From the NCBI GenBank assembly GCA_036374795.1, contig DASUTC010000347.1, forward strand, positions 1 through 64,000: a stretch of 64,000 bases of DNA. Reading direction: 5' to 3'. The notes below the pieces were generated by a model that saw nothing but the letters and a program-made list of their open reading frames with translations, did no database searches and had not been told where the DNA came from. How positions within the stretch are numbered: the stretch's first letter is position 1; each line of letters begins with the position of its first letter. A program made the position numbers and the translations under genes. Below, one piece after another: positions 36,825-58,125 of the stretch. The DNA comes from Herpetosiphonaceae bacterium. Its GTDB lineage: Bacteria; Chloroflexota; Chloroflexia; Chloroflexales; Kallotenuaceae.

Positions 36825-36853
36825 ATTGTATCATAATAGATTACAATTGTCAA
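36825..36853 (-). promoter_or_regulatory. Conserved element promoter, copy A
   Basis: On the minus strand: TTGACA (36848-36853), 17-bp spacer ATTGTAATCTATTATGA and TACAAT (36825-36830). It drives the SWIM/methylase-half operon. The spacer is shared with five other promoters in the window. Confidence 0.85.
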
Positions 36854-46551: not shown

Positions 46552-47340
46552 TCAACAACCTTGATTCAGCAACACCTGCAATTCGTCGAGCGTCTGCAGG
46601 ATCGTGCGTTGGTTCTCCAATAACCGCTGAATAATGACCCGCGGATCGTCGTACTGGATCGCAGGTGCGCGTTGCGGCTGGTAGCGACGTGCATCAAGCT
46701 CGTAGGCTGGACCAAGCGCGTCGACGGGCGTCTCCCAGGTCTCCATCGCGTCCGGATCGATCGTCACGGGAGCCGGCGATCGTCGTGCGCGTCGCGCGCG
46801 CTGCGGCGTCGCTGGACCGGCATAGAACCGGATCTGCCTGGTGCGACCTTCCGCGTGCACCATCAGGATGCTGGTACGCACGCCGGCATAGGGGTAAAAC
46901 ACATCGCTAGGCAGGGAAATAATCGTCTGCAGCGCGTGGTCTTCAACCAGGGTTTTGCGGAGTTTCACCAGCACCTTGGTCGAACCGAACAGCATGCCGT
47001 CGGGGAGAATCACGGCGATCCGGCCACCGCGGCGCACCTGCTTTAAGATCGCCGCCGTGCACAGGATCTCGGTTTTCGTTCCCCACGCTTTCACGTCGGG
47101 ACGGACATCCGGCAGATAGCACGCTCCACCAAACGGTGGGTTGCTCACGATGACGTCATGCTGCGTTTCATCAGCGTCGGCGATCGTGTCGCGCTGGGCG
47201 ATCGCCTGGCGTGGTACGCGGGAGGACCCTGGGTGCTGGGCGGCGGATCGAGGTGTGGACGGTGGAACCCAGCCAGCCGCGCGCAAGAGCAGCCCACTGC
47301 TGACCATGCCGTCCAGGGGTGGTGCGGCCATCGTCATCAT
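46552..47340 (-). CDS. N-6 DNA methylase, catalytic C-terminal half only
   Basis: 262 residues from ATG 47340, overlapping the previous stop (ATGA). After a 50-residue low-complexity head, ETQHDVIVSNPPFGGACYLP gives catalytic motif IV (NPPF), followed by LCTAAILKQVRRGGRIAVIL, PDGMLFGS and FYPYAGVRTSILMV as in HsdM. No SAM-binding DPxxGSG is present. It complements the halves at 6626 and 34570. It ends with a helical RVIIQRLLENQRTILQTLDE, similar to a methylase-specificity subunit contact helix. Last gene of the operon from 50 kb. Confidence 0.75.
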   Translation of the reverse strand: MMTMAAPPLDGMVSSGLLLRAAGWVPPSTPRSAAQHPGSSRVPRQAIAQRDTIADADETQHDVIVSNPPFGGACYLPDVRPDVKAWGTKTEILCTAAILKQVRRGGRIAVILPDGMLFGSTKVLVKLRKTLVEDHALQTIISLPSDVFYPYAGVRTSILMVHAEGRTRQIRFYAGPATPQRARRARRSPAPVTIDPDAMETWETPVDALGPAYELDARRYQPQRAPAIQYDDPRVIIQRLLENQRTILQTLDELQVLLNQGC

Positions 47341-48209
47341 GGTGCAGCTCGTTGCGTCGTGTGTGTCTGCACCAGGTGGCACAGCTCGCGGACCACGCGT
47401 GTCCCAAGCGGCTCGCCAATGAGCGCCGTGAGGGCGATGGTTGCCCGCTCCACGTCGCCGGCGGTGATCGCGGCCCAGATCTGGCGCAGCACGAGCTCAT
47501 GCGCTGTATCGAGCAGCTGGGCGGCTGGTTGCTCCTCGGATTGTGCCAGCGCATCAAGCGCCTCGTCAAGCAGGTCAATCCGCTCACACGCCGCGGAATG
47601 ACCATCGAACATCCAGGTGATGCCGGAATCACCATCATGATCGGCGATGGCCGCGCGCAGGTTGCGTGCAGCGCGAGCCAGCGCTTCCAGGGCCGCGCGC
47701 CGGGTTCCTTGCTCAAGGATGGACTCGTCGGGGTGATCGGCAGCCCGGAGACCTTCCTGAAGCCGTTGCCGCGCCCAGAGTCGACCCGGACGCCAACCAA
47801 CATTCCCCAGTATCCAGTCCGCGTCATCCGCTGCCTCTTTGAGGATGCGGCCGGCCCGCAGCGCAGCAAGTAAGACGGGATCAAGGTGATCGCCGGCGGC
47901 GAGTTGGCATTCAGCCAGGCGCTGCTCGGCGAGGCCCAGACTTGCCATGGCAACCGTTGCCTGGTCGAGCGCCAGATCGCGATCGCGAAGGATGCTTTCT
48001 ACCGTTCGCGCGCGATCACGCAGCACGGACTCGTCGAGGAGCTGGAGGAGGTGATCGCGCGCGATCTTGCCGCGCTGCTCGTTCCAGCGACTGGCGGCCG
48101 TGGCCCACGCGCTCAGTACACATTGGAGTTCGGCGATCCGTTCATGTGCCGCGTCCAGTTGAGCCTGGAGATCATCTGCTGGAGCTGGCGTCACGGGTGG
48201 TGTTTCCAC
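47337..48209 (-). CDS. Hypothetical coiled-coil protein
   Basis: 290 residues from GTG 48209, with AAGGAGG just before it. The N-terminal half is coiled-coil-like (LQAQLDAAHERIAELQCVLS, SILRDRDLALDQATVAMASL), the rest helical (GTRRAALEALARAARNLRAA, ERIDLLDEALDALAQSEEQP). It is translationally coupled to the catalytic methylase half, so it may be a specificity or assembly partner. This is inference; no target-recognition domain was identified. Confidence 0.65.
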   Translation of the reverse strand: METPPVTPAPADDLQAQLDAAHERIAELQCVLSAWATAASRWNEQRGKIARDHLLQLLDESVLRDRARTVESILRDRDLALDQATVAMASLGLAEQRLAECQLAAGDHLDPVLLAALRAGRILKEAADDADWILGNVGWRPGRLWARQRLQEGLRAADHPDESILEQGTRRAALEALARAARNLRAAIADHDGDSGITWMFDGHSAACERIDLLDEALDALAQSEEQPAAQLLDTAHELVLRQIWAAITAGDVERATIALTALIGEPLGTRVVRELCHLVQTHTTQRAAP

Positions 48210-48234: not shown

Positions 48235-48666
48235 CTACGATTCATCAATCTCGTGAGGCGTGGCGTGCTTGAGGCCCGGCACGACGAGCCAGAACCATTG
48301 CCGGCATTTGAAGAGCCGCAGCTCCAGCAATGCATCAGGAAAGGTCTGGCCGCCATGCCCCTGCCAGTGGCCCAGATTGGTCAGCTGCTGCTTGGCGCAC
48401 GGCGGACACAGATCGCCAGGCTGCCCCTTGTCGATCGAGTACGTTGGGTCGGCCGGATCGAGCGGCTGCGGCGCCGGGATACGCCCATGCTTCGAGTAGG
48501 GGCATGGCTGGCCGCCAAGCACGCTCGGAATATGTCCCGAGCAGATCAGCGCGTCCGGATAGGTGACACCACCGGCACCAAGAAACAGCGCCCGTGGAGG
48601 GTGCAGCAGCTGGTTCGGCTCGGGACTGTCAGGAATCGGTGGATCACGCTCTGGTAATGTCGTCAT
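48235..48666 (-). CDS. Hypothetical protein with cysteine pairs
   Basis: 143 residues from ATG 48666, overlapping the stop of the preceding gene by 23 bp. Cys-rich with GQPCPYSKHGR and GDLCPPCAKQQL plus His residues, so it could bind zinc. The C-terminus reads LFKCRQWFWLVVPGLKHATP. No known family. It lies between a DNA-binding protein gene and the coiled-coil gene in the same operon. Confidence 0.65.
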   Translation of the reverse strand: MTTLPERDPPIPDSPEPNQLLHPPRALFLGAGGVTYPDALICSGHIPSVLGGQPCPYSKHGRIPAPQPLDPADPTYSIDKGQPGDLCPPCAKQQLTNLGHWQGHGGQTFPDALLELRLFKCRQWFWLVVPGLKHATPHEIDES

Positions 48667-49597
48667 CGCCTGCCTCGGTCTCATTTGCTGGTTGGGCCGC
48701 CTGACGCGGCCCGCGTCGATGATACCGGACGTGGGGCGGCACAACGTCCGCCAGGGTTTCGCTCCACACGAAGTGCGTCCGGCCGATCTTGATCGCCTGA
48801 ATCTCGCCGCGCTTCGCCCAGACCGCCACGCGCCGGGCATCGACGCCGTAGCGGGCCGCAATCTCGGGATACGTTAGCCAGGTGCCGGTCGCCTGCGCCC
48901 GAATCGCTTCGGCCTCGGCGCGCCAGATGGGATCGCGAATCGTTCGGGGCTCCCAGGTGGCCCACCCGTCGTGCACGGCGAGGAACTCTTGGATGGCCGC
49001 GTCAGTGACCAAGTACGTGCGTTTTTTGGCCTTGGGCCGTCTGGCATCGTCGTTCCGTCGTGCCGTGAGCCACCCATGCCGCCGCCACAGATCCGGCAGC
49101 TTGTCCGGAACGCCAAACAGCCGGGCAACGCCGAGCAGCGACCGCACCTGGATCGTTTGCCCGCGCATGGCGCGAACGCCGCCAAACCGCTCCGTCCGCT
49201 GGCACACCGCTGCATACGAGCGGTTTAATTGCTTGGCGACCTGGAACAATGGCAAGCCATTCTGAACGAGCCGTTGGAGCTCCTCGTCGTCCGTCGGACT
49301 CCAGTCCGGCAGCTCAAAGCGTTCTGTTGTGCGAATGCGCCCGCTGGCGTACAGTTCCTTCCGCTTTTCCCGAACGCCGTGAAGTGGGCGCTGCAGTACC
49401 CGCGCCTGCGCTTCAAGCGGCAGGGTCGCGTGCGTTCTGATGAGAAACGCGATTTCCTCCGGCCTCCAATGTTTGTATGTCCGTGCCGACCCATGGATCG
49501 GCGCGGCAACAATCTTTGGAGACCGTCGCCATTTCGGGCGCGGCCTCCGGCGTTGGAGCCCCTGGTGCGCCTGGTTAAGCTCGCTCCGTGGGCTCAT
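48644..49597 (-). CDS. Multi-domain DNA-binding protein (Myb-like repeats and HTH)
   Basis: 317 residues from ATG 49597, whose first bases overlap the previous stop. After a basic head there are two Myb/SANT-like units (KHWRPEEIAFLIRTHATLPL, EAQARVLQRPLHGVREKRKE; then PDWSPTDDEELQRLVQNGLP, LFQVAKQLNRSYAAVCQRTE). A C-terminal MerR/excisionase-like unit follows (TWLTYPEIAARYGVDARRVA, VWAKRGEIQAIKIGRTHFVW). Several DNA-binding units in one chain suggest an architectural or regulatory protein. It is a candidate for the protein that reads the conserved promoter spacer. Confidence 0.7.
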   Translation of the reverse strand: MSPRSELNQAHQGLQRRRPRPKWRRSPKIVAAPIHGSARTYKHWRPEEIAFLIRTHATLPLEAQARVLQRPLHGVREKRKELYASGRIRTTERFELPDWSPTDDEELQRLVQNGLPLFQVAKQLNRSYAAVCQRTERFGGVRAMRGQTIQVRSLLGVARLFGVPDKLPDLWRRHGWLTARRNDDARRPKAKKRTYLVTDAAIQEFLAVHDGWATWEPRTIRDPIWRAEAEAIRAQATGTWLTYPEIAARYGVDARRVAVWAKRGEIQAIKIGRTHFVWSETLADVVPPHVRYHRRGPRQAAQPANETEAGDDDITRA

Positions 49598-49986
49598 CGG
49601 GCGCACCGCAGGATGTTGGGGTCGAGCCGCTCGATCGTCCGCACCGCCGGATCGTCGCGTCGCGTCGCGGTCGACAGCTCGAAGCACACTACGGTATCGA
49701 CCCTGACCCCCAGCGCCTGCGCTGCGGTTGCCCGCTCGCGAAAGCCGTCGGGATGATCGAACCGGACCGTAACGGTCGTCCCATCCGGATGTGGTTCGAC
49801 GGTGACGACGTCGGCCCGTACCCATTCGGTGGTGGGCTGGCTTGCCATCGACGGCAGGCTGGTGCTGGCCCGTGAAATGAGCGTGCGCGCGGCGGAGACC
49901 TTATCCCACGACGGCATCTCCGGCTGGGCCATCACCACCAGCCCGCCGAGGATCAGCAGAACACCGACGAATACCAAACCGCGCAT
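49594..49986 (-). CDS. Small exported or membrane-anchored protein
   Basis: 130 residues with an N-terminal hydrophobic segment (GLVFVGVLLILGGLVVMAQP), then a beta-rich domain (RADVVTVEPHPDGTTVTVRF, RVDTVVCFELSTA). It overlaps the DNA-binding gene by 4 bp. It begins about 60 bp past the tRNA-like gene, so it may be the first protein made from the long transcript starting at 52.2 kb. Function unknown. Confidence 0.65.
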   Translation of the reverse strand: MRGLVFVGVLLILGGLVVMAQPEMPSWDKVSAARTLISRASTSLPSMASQPTTEWVRADVVTVEPHPDGTTVTVRFDHPDGFRERATAAQALGVRVDTVVCFELSTATRRDDPAVRTIERLDPNILRCAR

Positions 49987-50044
49987 GGCGCACCTCCTGA
50001 TCCAGGTTGTTGCAGTGGACGAGGGTCGAGGTGAACGCGTGTTG

Positions 50045-50116
50045 TGGCGTTGGCAAGAGTCAAACTTGCGACCTCCGCACTGCGATGCGGTGCTCTGTCC
50101 ACTGAGCTACAACGCC
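50045..50116 (-). tRNA. tRNA-like gene with non-standard anticodon loop
   Basis: A full cloverleaf folds on the minus strand. It has a perfect 7-bp acceptor (GGCGTTG/CAACGCC), TA, D-arm GCTC-AGTGGACA-GAGC, anticodon stem CCGCA/TGCGG, T-arm GCAAG-TTTGACT-CTTGC and a discriminator A. CCA is not encoded. The anticodon loop is 6 nt (TCGCAG) if all five pairs form, or 8 nt (ATCGCAGT) with four, so the identity cannot be read. The D-arm resembles tRNA-Arg. It directly follows the proposed giant RNA. Confidence 0.7.
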
Positions 50117-50125
50117 CCAAGGAGG

Positions 50126-52213
50126 CGACTGGTCCCGAGCGGTTACGGCCTCGGTGTGAAGCCACACACGAAACCCTAGAGGCAGCGGCCGTAACCCGCT
50201 GCATCCGGTATCTCATGCCTGACCATGACGCGCCCGCTGAGGCGGCGTCCCCTGTGGTCGAGCGTGGTGCGTCGCTCTCGTCGGCAGCCAATGGTGCTGC
50301 GCCGCTGATCCCGCCTGGCCAGGAGCCTGAGACGACGAGCAGCGAGGCTACTTGGGCTCCGGGTGCTACGCCGGATTCCGTTGGTCCTCCACGGCTCCCC
50401 GTCGAAGGGTAGCACCTCCTCGACAAGGCTCGATCAATGGCGCATCCATGGGATGAAGCTGCCGACGACAGCGACGCATCTCTGCCGTCGTGCGCAGTGC
50501 CTCGGCATGCGCGTTGCCGACGCGTGGTCGTTGCCCATGAGCCGGGTGTCGGCGGAAGGAGCACCCTCATCCCACGCCAGCGGAGTCTTGCCGGCGCCGG
50601 CCTGCGAAAACCGACCGACCTGTGGCTCATGGGGCATACTGCATTGGCGGGGACGGCCGTGGCCTGCGGCGGTTGCGGTGTCACGCGCAAATCCGTGGGG
50701 TGACACCCACGCATCCGTCCCCTATCCCTGCCAATCTCATCGCGCTCCTCGCCGCCGGACAGCCTGCGCAGCATCTCGCGATGCCGGCCTGCCGACCGAC
50801 GGCAGGAACACGGGTCCAGTCTTGCCCGTTCGTGGCGATCGAGCAGCGCGACTGGCGACGCCTGGCCAGACCGGGCAGCGGCGATCCGCTGGGCCGGCCA
50901 ATTCCGGAGAACGCATCGGTGCGTGCTCAGTCTGACCACTCCTACGGTGCGGGCGCGGGCAGCGGCTGGTCATCGACACGAATTGGCGGTTCCTGTCGAT
51001 GGTGATGCCGACGACCTGCATCGCCAGCCACTGCTGGTTGAATCACCCGAGGCGATACCTGGCTTGGCGGGTGACAGCCGCCACCGCCGACCGCTGCCGT
51101 TGTCCAACGCAACGGGTGGTGCATCGCTGAGACCAGCGTGCTTCACACGTCAGGGATCGATCGTCGGTGCCACTGGTCGAGCGCGCATCGGCGCTCTGGA
51201 CGAGAACGGCCTGACAGGTGCGTCAATAGCCTGCCCGTTCCCGTCCAGAGGGTCGATATGGGGATGCCAGATTGCGCGGTCGCCGTGGAAAACGGTGCAA
51301 GATGGGCGAAGGCTCTGGACCGGTCTACGGAGCCCGCCGCGCAATCGAGCGGAGGCGACGGCCAATGGATCGCAGCCGTAACCGTTCCTGTGAACGGCGA
51401 CGACCTTGCCCACCGGCAGCATCGCGAGCATGTGTGTCGAGCGTCGAGCGGCGCTCTCGGCAGGGCGGCAGCCAGGCCCCGATCCAGCTCCGGTACCGTC
51501 CGGTTCCCACGCCGTCCGGCCCGGTGACTGCATCGGGGGTGGGAACCTGGCTCATTCCGCCCTCCCGAGAAGGTCGCTCTGTACTCGATGGAACTCCTGC
51601 ATGTGCATGGCGAGGAGCAGGACGCGATCGGCATCGCGTCGGTCAGCAGTTTCGGCCACCTTCCACCACAGGTCGCTGGACCGTACGAGGCGGTACGCAA
51701 CGAACACGAGCCTGTGCGAGGCCAGATTCTCTGATGCGACCATCGCCGCATTTCAGCCCGGTTTGTCTTCAAGGGATTTGCCCTTTGTCCCTCTACCTAC
51801 CGGTCCTGGAGCTGACTTCTAACCACGACTACCGCTCCCGGAGCGGCGGCGGCTCCTGCCATCCAACGTCCGTGGCGTCGGTGATCATCGCGGTCATGTC
51901 ACGCGAATGACAGTACCATCTGCCGAGTTCTCTTGCGTCCCCAGCATGTGATAATCACCGCCACCCCGGCCCGGTTTGTGTCCCGCTTCAGGAATAACCC
52001 CGCACGGTTCAGCGATCTGACGGCTCGGTCAGATCGCTCGCGGGAGCGGGCTGGTGATACAGCCGGAACTGCGCCGGACGCACGGCCCGGTCACCAGAAG
52101 AGATAGACATCGATCGGGTTGTTCAGGTGCGCTCTGCCTCGCTCGTAGCGGCAGCCCAGATCCCCTCTTGCCTCGGGGAACGGCTGACGGAGATCGCATC
52201 TCCGTCCTGACCC
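50126..52213 (-). ncRNA. Candidate giant structured non-coding RNA (about 2.1 kb)
   Basis: No frame on either strand gives a believable protein, although GC is high and long open frames occur by chance. The region has its own strong leftward promoter (52220-52248) and is packed with inverted repeats: 52186-52206 (9-bp stem, 3-nt loop), 52011-52038 (11 bp, 6-nt loop), 52051-52097 (7 bp, enclosing others), 51621-51640 (8 bp, 4-nt loop), 51502-51547 (9 bp), 51382-51397 (6 bp), 51194-51250 (9 bp plus 5 bp across a 2x2 loop), 50677-50707 (7 bp), 50522-50577 (6+5+4 bp nested) and 50139-50199 (12 bp, one bulge). The predicted 5' end starts 7 nt before the first hairpin; the 3' end runs into the tRNA-like gene. 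Scale and layout recall GOLLD, ROOL or OLE RNAs, but I see no sequence link to them. Confidence 0.6.
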
Positions 52214-52219
52214 TAGCTA

Positions 52220-52248
52220 AGTATAGCATGGTAGATTACAGTTGTCAA
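52220..52248 (-). promoter_or_regulatory. Conserved element promoter, copy C (drives the candidate giant RNA)
   Basis: On the minus strand: TTGACA (52243-52248), spacer ACTGTAATCTACCATGC (17 bp) and TATACT (52220-52225). Transcription would start near 52213. No start codon with a ribosome site follows, which supports an RNA product. Confidence 0.85.
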
Positions 52249-52472
52249 TAGATGATTTTGTTTAGACGGTGGTGTTGGCGTGCTCTGACGGGTGGAGCCC
52301 GTGCGACGATGGCAGGCCATGCGGTGTGAGCCGTCACCGCTGTTGACTTGGTTCGGCTGGCACCGGTCGCGTTGCGGAGATGCCCAAATGGCGCGGCCCG
52401 GGGTCTGGGCGATCCGGTCGCCCTGAGGAAGCGAACCGCCCAGCCAGCCATCTTCAGCACCCCGATGGATGA

Positions 52473-53837
52473 TCACGCCAGGTAGTCGCGCAGCCTGGCG
52501 CCGAACGCGGGATGGCGGAGCTTGCGCAGCGCCTCGGCTTCGATCTGGCGGATACGCTCGCGGGTGAGGCCCTCGACCAGCTCCCCGACTTCTTCCAGCG
52601 TGCGGTGTTGGCCATCGTCCAGGCCAAACCGCAGGCGAATCACGCGGCGTTCCCGCGCCGGAAGCCGATCCAGAATCTCGTCGAGGTCTGCCCGTAACTG
52701 GGCCTGCGCGACCTGATCAAAGGTTGCGGCATGGGTTTGGTCGGCGACCAGCTCACCGAGCCGGATCTCGTCGCCGTCCTTGCTGGCATAGACGGGTTTC
52801 TCCAGCGATTCCGGCTGCGCGGTCCGGGTCAGGTAGGTGGTGTACTTGTCGAGGGACCACCCGAGCGCGTCCGCCATGTCTTGATGGCTCGGCGTGCGAT
52901 TCAAGCTCGTGGCGAGCGCTGCCCGGGTCCGGTTGACGGCGGTCATCGTGTCGGTCATGTGTACGGGCAGGCGAATCGTGCGCCCCTGCTCGGCCAAGGC
53001 CCGGGTCACGGCCTGGCGAATCCACCACGAGGCATAGGTCGAGAACTTGAACCCCTTGGTATGATCGAACTTGCCGACGGCCCGCATCAGCCCGATATTG
53101 CCTTCTTGAATCAGATCCAGGAACGTGAGACCCTGACCACGGTATTTCTTGGCGATACTGACCACGAGGCGCAGATTGGCCTGGATCATGCGCGCGCGGG
53201 CGTCCGCTCCGGCCTGCACGAGCTGCCGGAGCAGCGCTGTGGTGTCCGCGTCCAGGTGTGCATCCGGATCGGCAAGCTGCTCCTGGGCCAATCGTCCGGT
53301 CTCCATCGCCTTGGCAAGCTCGACTTCTTCCTGCGCGGTGAGCAAGGCGGTCTGCCCAATCTCCCGCAGGTAGAGCCGGAGCGGATCGTCATCCACCTCG
53401 ACGCCAACATCAGTCTCGATCTCGTCCGCTTCCGGCTCCAGCACGTAGAACGCGGGTGGCTCGTCCGCGTCCTCCGACGGGATCGCGGCGCCTGCACCAG
53501 CGGGTGCCAGCGCGGGCGTGCTGGTTCGGTGGGGGGTATCGTAGGCTGCTCCGGCGGAACCGTCGGGCACGTCCCGCCCCGCGTGCGTTCCGCTCGCGCT
53601 CGGTGCGACGATCGGCGTCAGGTGACCACCCGTCAGGCGATGCGCCTTGATCCGATGCATCTTGATGGCGCGGCCGGCTGGCTTTTGAACGGAACAGCCT
53701 GGATAGCCACACGCAACCATGGCACCAGTACCCGATTGGTTGCGCGGCACCTCAGGGTTTGCCTCGCCGCGAGGTGTGTCCACCAGCGCTATCGTGGTTG
53801 AGATTCTTTGAGGGGGAATACGTGTAATGACAGCCAT
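52473..53837 (-). CDS. Primary-type sigma-70 factor with N-terminal C2H2-like finger
   Basis: 454 residues from ATG 53837, with GGGGAG upstream. The N-terminus carries [20 protein letters not shown] followed by IKAH, a possible C2-H2 zinc finger, then an acidic linker. Sigma regions follow: 1.2 ([20 protein letters not shown]), 2 ([53 protein letters not shown]), 3 ([15 protein letters not shown]) and 4 ([37 protein letters not shown]). It is a full housekeeping-type sigma on an accessory element, transcribed from a copy of the conserved promoter, so it probably serves those promoters. Confidence 0.9.
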
Positions 53838-54036: not shown

Positions 54037-54065
54037 AGTATATCTATATACATTACTATTGTCAA
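54037..54065 (-). promoter_or_regulatory. Conserved element promoter, copy D (sigma factor)
   Basis: On the minus strand: TTGACA (54060-54065), spacer ATAGTAATGTATATAGA (17 bp) and TATACT (54037-54042). The leader to the sigma gene is about 195 nt. This is the most divergent intact spacer of the family. Confidence 0.8.
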
Positions 54066-57198: not shown

Positions 57199-58125
57199 AT
57201 GTCTCAGCTGCGCACGCCGTTATTTCGGGAGCTTCGGATTCCTGCTGCGATCGAGCAGGCGCTGCGCCAAGGCGCCTCTATCGCGATCAATCACAGCGGC
57301 GGCAAAGACTCCCAGGCAATGGAAGCGGTGCTCTGCGCCTGGCTCGCGTCGCAGGGACTGCTCCATCGCGCGTTTAGCATCCACTGCGATCTGGGCCGTG
57401 CTGAGTGGGTCTACTCGCTCCCGCAGTGCCGCCGCACCAGTGCCGCGCAGGGTATCCCGCTGGTCGAAGTTCGCCCACCCAACGGCGATCTGCTCGATTA
57501 TCTGGAGCGGAAAGCCGCGGCGGTGGCTGGCACCGGTACCCCGTTCTGGCCAAGCAAGCGGCACCGGTGGTGTACAAGCTTGAAGCGGGCAGCCTGCGAC
57601 AAGCATTTCCGGCGCTACCCGCTCATCATTTCTGCCGAAGGGATGCGCGCGGAAGAGAGTCGGGACCGCGCGAACAAACAGCCACTCGCGCTGCGCACGC
57701 AGATTACGGCCAAAGCGCTCCAATCCGGGTCGATCGACGAGGCGCTCGCCCAGCGCAGCGGGACGCAGCGGGTGGCATTAACGTGGCTGCCGATCCACGA
57801 CTGGACGGAAGCAGATGTCTGGCACGCCTGCGGAACAAGCCTGGATGAACTGTCCCACCGCCGCGAACTGTGGCGTGCTGGCGATCATCACCGGGCCGTT
57901 GATGGCTGGCCAGCGCATCGGGTCTATGTCATGGGCAACCACCGTGCGAGCTGCGCAATCTGCCTGCTCGCCGACCAGAATGACCTGCGCAATGGCGTCC
58001 GGTATCATCCTGAACTCGCCAGCGCCTATCTGCAGCTTGAGGCAACCACCGGCTGTACCTTTCGGCATGGTCGCTCGCTCGCGAGCCTGAGCGCCAGCGT
58101 TCCTGTCGCAGGGGGACATTCATGA
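57199..58125 (+). CDS. PAPS reductase/DndC-like PP-loop protein
   Basis: 308 residues. The N-terminal PP-loop motif INHSGGKDSQAME is followed by FSIHCDLGRAEW, and WCTSLKRAACDK matches the CysH-family segment that follows the nucleotide site. The C-terminal half has HDWTEADVWHACG and HRASCAICLLADQNDLRNG with a Cys pair. It belongs to the phosphoadenosine-phosphosulfate reductase superfamily (CysH, DndC, or ATP-pyrophosphatase-type modifiers). In an element operon, a role in nucleic-acid modification is more likely than sulfate assimilation; this is inference. No dndB, dndD or dndE is seen. Confidence 0.8.
   Translation: MSQLRTPLFRELRIPAAIEQALRQGASIAINHSGGKDSQAMEAVLCAWLASQGLLHRAFSIHCDLGRAEWVYSLPQCRRTSAAQGIPLVEVRPPNGDLLDYLERKAAAVAGTGTPFWPSKRHRWCTSLKRAACDKHFRRYPLIISAEGMRAEESRDRANKQPLALRTQITAKALQSGSIDEALAQRSGTQRVALTWLPIHDWTEADVWHACGTSLDELSHRRELWRAGDHHRAVDGWPAHRVYVMGNHRASCAICLLADQNDLRNGVRYHPELASAYLQLEATTGCTFRHGRSLASLSASVPVAGGHS

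Follow-up and report, generated by a model that had tools for sequence, protein, structure and literature searches.

To our knowledge, few giant RNAs have so far been described in bacteria, and their functions are open. Two of them have recently been seen forming RNA-only cages. GOLLD assembles as a homo-oligomeric cage with kissing loops. HEARO is a large mobile-element RNA accompanied by an HNH-type protein gene. OLE is a large, ornate RNA of ~600 nt that occurs mostly in Bacillota and works with protein partners. GOLLD is a large structured RNA of mobile elements with a tRNA or pseudo-tRNA nearby or inside (PMC12286853, PMC6582537), and both GOLLD and ROOL come from phage and prophage genomes, where tRNA islands are often close by (PMC12286853). 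On a megaplasmid of L. salivarius, where a ROOL-type RNA has been discussed together with an HTH gene, deletion of this RNA lowered the megaplasmid/chromosome ratio (PMC5643018).

The locus described here, a predicted structured RNA of ~2.1 kb, shares some of these traits. As with GOLLD, it lies on a mobile element by a tRNA, here immediately downstream and on a contig that also encodes TraG-D_C and ParB. However, many GOLLD members are described as >800 nt, the predicted RNA is more than twice the size that is usually given for GOLLD, and a single tRNA is present here rather than an array. ROOL is likewise phage- or megaplasmid-borne, often has tRNA islands nearby and, in the L. salivarius discussion, an HTH gene, but measures about 500-660 nt (520-659) against 2.1 kb from promoter to tRNA in this case (both ends predicted). 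OLE is also a large non-coding RNA, though of only ~600 nt, and the HNH-type partner gene of HEARO has no recognised counterpart beside the RNA. Structured 5′ leaders and riboswitches are similar in standing ahead of a Shine-Dalgarno-led operon, but differ in length, in the tRNA that lies between and in that no such family was matched. In Rfam 15, tRNA was the sole family at gathering score, and a search with E up to 5 added three weak matches far under their cut-offs, none of them a giant RNA. The first-pass annotation of this DNA, from the sequence alone, had seen no match to GOLLD, ROOL, OLE or HEARO. By the Rfam test the predicted RNA is thus a member of none of these families, and it resembles GOLLD and ROOL in its working at most by analogy.

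Genomic setting

The window analysed comprises the first 64 kb of contig C347 (206.5 kb), from a genome of 7.75 Mb in 373 contigs. C347 encodes TraG-D_C, FtsK/SpoIIIE, ParB, an ATP-dependent DNA ligase and a phage-type sigma factor, and with this gene content it looks like a large conjugative plasmid or an integrative element. A sister element on contig C231 of the same genome is syntenic and 77-88% identical on either side of window positions 48636-52479, where it carries ~128 bp instead. The entire unit is therefore present or absent as one block. Its features are as follows:

48636-52479, no strand assigned: 3.8-kb unit of RNA, tRNA and two genes
52220-52248, minus: promoter TTGACA-17-TATACT of the element promoter family TTGACAAYTGTAATCTAYYATGATAYAAT; predicted transcription start near 52213
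50117-52213, minus: predicted giant structured RNA, ~2.1 kb, non-coding; no coding signal, 13% folding excess in both halves
50044-50116, minus: tRNA gene with cloverleaf (Rfam RF00005, 58.8 bits versus a gathering score of 29)
49991-49998, minus: perfect Shine-Dalgarno AGGAGGTG of the 130-aa gene
49594-49986, minus: gene for a 130-aa protein with a hydrophobic N-terminus; weak, possible remote homologues in genomes of the same order
48644-49597, minus: gene for a 317-aa HTH/D5-like regulator, its start overlapping the preceding stop (ATGA)

Other genes of the two elements were recorded in passing. An N6-type DNA methyltransferase gene (window 46552-47382), whose match covers just part of its Pfam and PHROG models, is 88% identical to its copy in the sister element, and a phage-type PAPS-reductase-like gene (phrog_424; 57199-58125) has an element-family promoter ahead of it. 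A candidate opal suppressor, a tRNA with anticodon UCA (ARAGORN: SeC; C231:16378-16455, or L026:4379-4456, minus strand), stands directly behind the DNA ligase gene of the sister element. When the proteins neighbouring 50126-52213 were searched in viral contigs, only general sigma-factor relatives were found.

Promoter

The first-pass annotation had placed a near-consensus promoter of the element's own family ahead of the RNA, and TTGACA-17-TATACT at 52248-52220 confirms it. A pattern search of this genome for the TTGACAAYTGTAATCTAYYATGATAYAAT family recovered nine sites (six on C347, two on C231 and one on C102), and a more diverged site at 54065, ahead of the sigma gene, makes ten. The same pattern gave 0 sites in 149 relatives, and a reversed control pattern had no match. 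On C347 the family stands at window positions 36853, 43269, 52248, 54065, 55341 and 57092 and at contig position 199987. An ORF of at least 80 aa begins no more than 170 nt from six of these seven sites; the only exception is 52248, where no ORF of that size begins within ~400 nt downstream.

A fixed block, TTGACAANTGTAANNTANNATG, recurs in the promoter family ahead of many element genes on C347, C231 and C102. The same promoter pattern occurs in AT-rich viral contigs, including four times in IMGVR_UViG_3300042923_000502, and the viral copies often directly precede a Shine-Dalgarno sequence and start codon. The block-containing pattern may be a shared operator mark. In public collections it was found mostly in AT-rich MAG and viral contigs and did not lead to relatives of the element.

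The tRNA and the downstream genes

The tRNA at 50044-50116 starts just beyond the last helix of the predicted RNA, and its score of 58.8 bits supports by calculation the earlier claim that the transcript leads into a tRNA-like gene. Its anticodon loop is only 6 nt long (UCGCAG), T-loop position 56 is U rather than C, and no CCA is encoded. The short anticodon loop and the U at position 56 make its decoding ability doubtful, and it may be chiefly a processing signal. Relatives of this tRNA occur on plasmids and in one phage, where the annotation, on which alone they were judged, held nothing suggestive of an adjacent giant RNA. The 317-aa regulator has relatives on C367, another contig of the genome (38-40% identity), and in genome G003 (35%); an in-frame TGA considered in these relatives proved to be located at the natural C-terminus.

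Between the promoter and the tRNA and genes, no terminators were found apart from weak sites such as chance alone would produce. The predicted RNA probably heads an operon with the tRNA, the 130-aa protein and the HTH regulator, and we infer that the unit of RNA, tRNA and two genes is transcribed as one. Such an operon makes a long structured leader a live alternative, in which the 2.1 kb would be the 5′ part of a single mRNA that controls the tRNA and both protein genes, with no independent RNA. The common strand and lack of an intervening terminator are consistent with this, as are the perfect Shine-Dalgarno, the ATGA that couples the two genes and the presence or absence of the 3.8-kb unit as a whole. 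However, 2.1 kb far exceeds the usual length of a leader, the structure is spread evenly across both halves rather than concentrated near the genes, and excision of the intervening tRNA by RNase P would part the leader from its mRNA. We consider a leader unlikely, though it is the strongest of the competing explanations.

Searches for homologues

No homologue of the region was found by blastn in two overlapping sets of 200 relatives and 400 genomes from the phylum (nearly 500 genomes in all), in 50,697 phage records or in 72,556 plasmid records; outside the tRNA the matches were short and at chance level, the best lying inside rpoB. Single-sequence covariance models of three domains (R1, R2 and R3) likewise found no homologue in 150-340 genomes or the sister elements, and the best R3 match, which fell antisense within a coding gene, was rejected.

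Folding of the predicted RNA

The principal structural features of the minus-strand transcript, in 5′ to 3′ order, are:

52186-52206, minus: first hairpin, 9 bp, perfect, 7 nt past the predicted start
52011-52038, minus: 11-bp perfect hairpin (p=0.98)
51434-51591, minus: long rod-like domain (helix pairing probability 0.96-1.0; covariance model R1)
51194-51250, minus: hairpin with a continuous 16-bp helix when G-U pairs are allowed
50738-50942, minus: compact multi-hairpin domain with the sole GNRA loop (GCGA)
50264-50482, minus: domain whose closing helix spans 21 bp and has one mismatch (50268-50289/50457-50478)
50138-50237, minus: 3′ strand of long-range helices with 50949-51095, which close the 3′ half (p 0.74-0.98)

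All of the stems named in the first-pass annotation exist (52011-52038, 52186-52206, 51502-51547, 51621-51640 and 51194-51250), and longer-range pairs such as 50268-50289/50457-50478 occur in addition to these local helices. When perfect stems of 8 bp or longer and loops of no more than 40 are counted, the region 50126-52213 has nine hairpins. Its dinucleotide shuffles have 1.9 +/- 1.5, and 42 GC-rich pieces from elsewhere on C347 average 3.4 +/- 2.0, with one of the 42 also having nine. The rod at 51434-51591, whose helix 51437-51588 is among the high-probability pairings, overlaps the 120-nt window of largest local excess (z -5.7).

The full 2088-nt minus strand has a minimum free energy of -1075.8 kcal/mol versus -962 +/- 11 in dinucleotide shuffles. 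Shuffling in 60-nt blocks, which keeps local composition, gave -970.6 +/- 12.5, with z-scores of -8.4 for the minus strand and -5.9 for the plus strand, and the difference between strands is -52.7 kcal versus -10.4 +/- 9.2 in shuffles. The z-scores from dinucleotide shuffles looked overwhelming, but are read more cautiously in the light of block shuffles and control windows. As shuffle z-scores can mislead, percent excess was also compared in 1044-nt windows with strand-specific block shuffles, the region being represented by two independent halves and one overlapping window. Its excess was 13.1, 13.5 and 13.8% on the minus strand and 5.7-9.8% on the plus strand, against a mean of 0.9% (sd 2.6, best 7.0%) over both strands of 28 GC-matched C347 windows. 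The folding excess of the region is more than chance. Two AT-richer stretches of C347, 1100-2144 and 90800-92344 (GC 0.44-0.52), which were picked as extreme, show 10-25% excess on both strands and so equal or exceed it; within the latter, 91248-91847 contains a few long hairpins, including one of 16 bp near contig position 91310 (GCTGTATTTTACAG). Ornate features were not enriched in the single-sequence fold model, in which one of 33 loops was of the GNRA type, and in this model, built on one sequence, no two loops were complementary over 5 bp or more.

These values bear on a second explanation, in which the region is decayed or neutral non-coding DNA, such as remnants of a gene or tRNA region, that is rich in hairpins by chance. 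The empty homologue searches and a sister element that does without the unit would fit such decay; matches to other genes, e.g., rpoB, are short and at chance level only, and high GC favours hairpins. Against this, both halves exceed composition-matched shuffles and lie about five standard deviations over the GC-matched windows, the consensus promoter is intact and the six frames hold no recognisable remnant. Decay is therefore also unlikely, and marginally more so than a leader.

A third possibility places the function in the DNA itself, with hairpins that form in the single-stranded DNA of a conjugative element as its transfer origin, as leading-region signals or as signals for single-strand replication. 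The contig does encode conjugation-type and partition genes (TraG-D_C, FtsK, ParB), and the plus strand too folds above expectation. Moreover, a fold that allows no G-U pairs keeps most of the excess, with little loss in size, and by itself the excess is thus no proof of selection on RNA rather than DNA. The preference for the minus strand is nevertheless consistent, a consensus promoter reads into the region, and the hairpins extend over 2 kb instead of clustering at a single site, which together make a role at the DNA level improbable.

Coding potential

A codon-position model trained on the genes of the window and applied to all frames of both strands across 50120-52450 gave scores below zero for nearly all frames. 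Only three were mildly positive, of 63 aa (51552-51743, minus strand), 48 aa (plus strand) and 33 aa, and six-frame translations of 50126-52213 had zero matches to Pfam and PHROGs, in line with the earlier observation that the region holds no plausible protein. That the 63-aa frame is a small translated gene, ATGA-linked to a 76-aa frame and set in mere spacer, is very improbable: its codon score is weakly positive and the start of the next frame overlaps it, but the adjoining 76-aa frame scores negative, the 63-aa frame matches nothing in Pfam, phages or plasmids and has, by eye, no Shine-Dalgarno ahead of it, and both frames lie mostly within high-probability stems.

Proposed mechanism and significance

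The reading we favour, and regard as probable, is that the region encodes an orphan giant structured non-coding RNA of ~2.1 kb that is driven by an element promoter, freed by RNase P at the tRNA and similar to GOLLD and ROOL in action, though to neither by match. The giant RNA proposed in the first-pass annotation is partly supported, in that calculation bears out a large, structured, minus-strand RNA with its own promoter that runs into a tRNA; in addition, the unit is more than a lone RNA, as it heads a probable operon.

Transcription would proceed leftward from the element's own promoter class through the ~2.1-kb RNA, and the primary transcript would extend through the tRNA into the two protein genes. 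Cleavage by RNase P at the 5′ end of the tRNA (predicted site 50116/50117) would free the RNA, giving it a defined 3′ end, and presumably leave the tRNA and a short mRNA. By analogy with ROOL and GOLLD, the RNA would probably act as a stable folded particle that serves maintenance of the element or its use of the translation machinery.

More tentatively, and with slightly less than even confidence, we suggest that this is the first member of a new class of giant bacterial RNA, ~2.1 kb long and organised in an operon with an RNase P-freed tRNA and an HTH regulator on a conjugative-type element. If so, giant bacterial RNAs would reach a larger size than before, with a 2-kb RNA that belongs to no Rfam family, and a unit that one element carries and its sister in the same genome cleanly lacks would offer a natural pair for testing the role of such RNAs in mobile elements.
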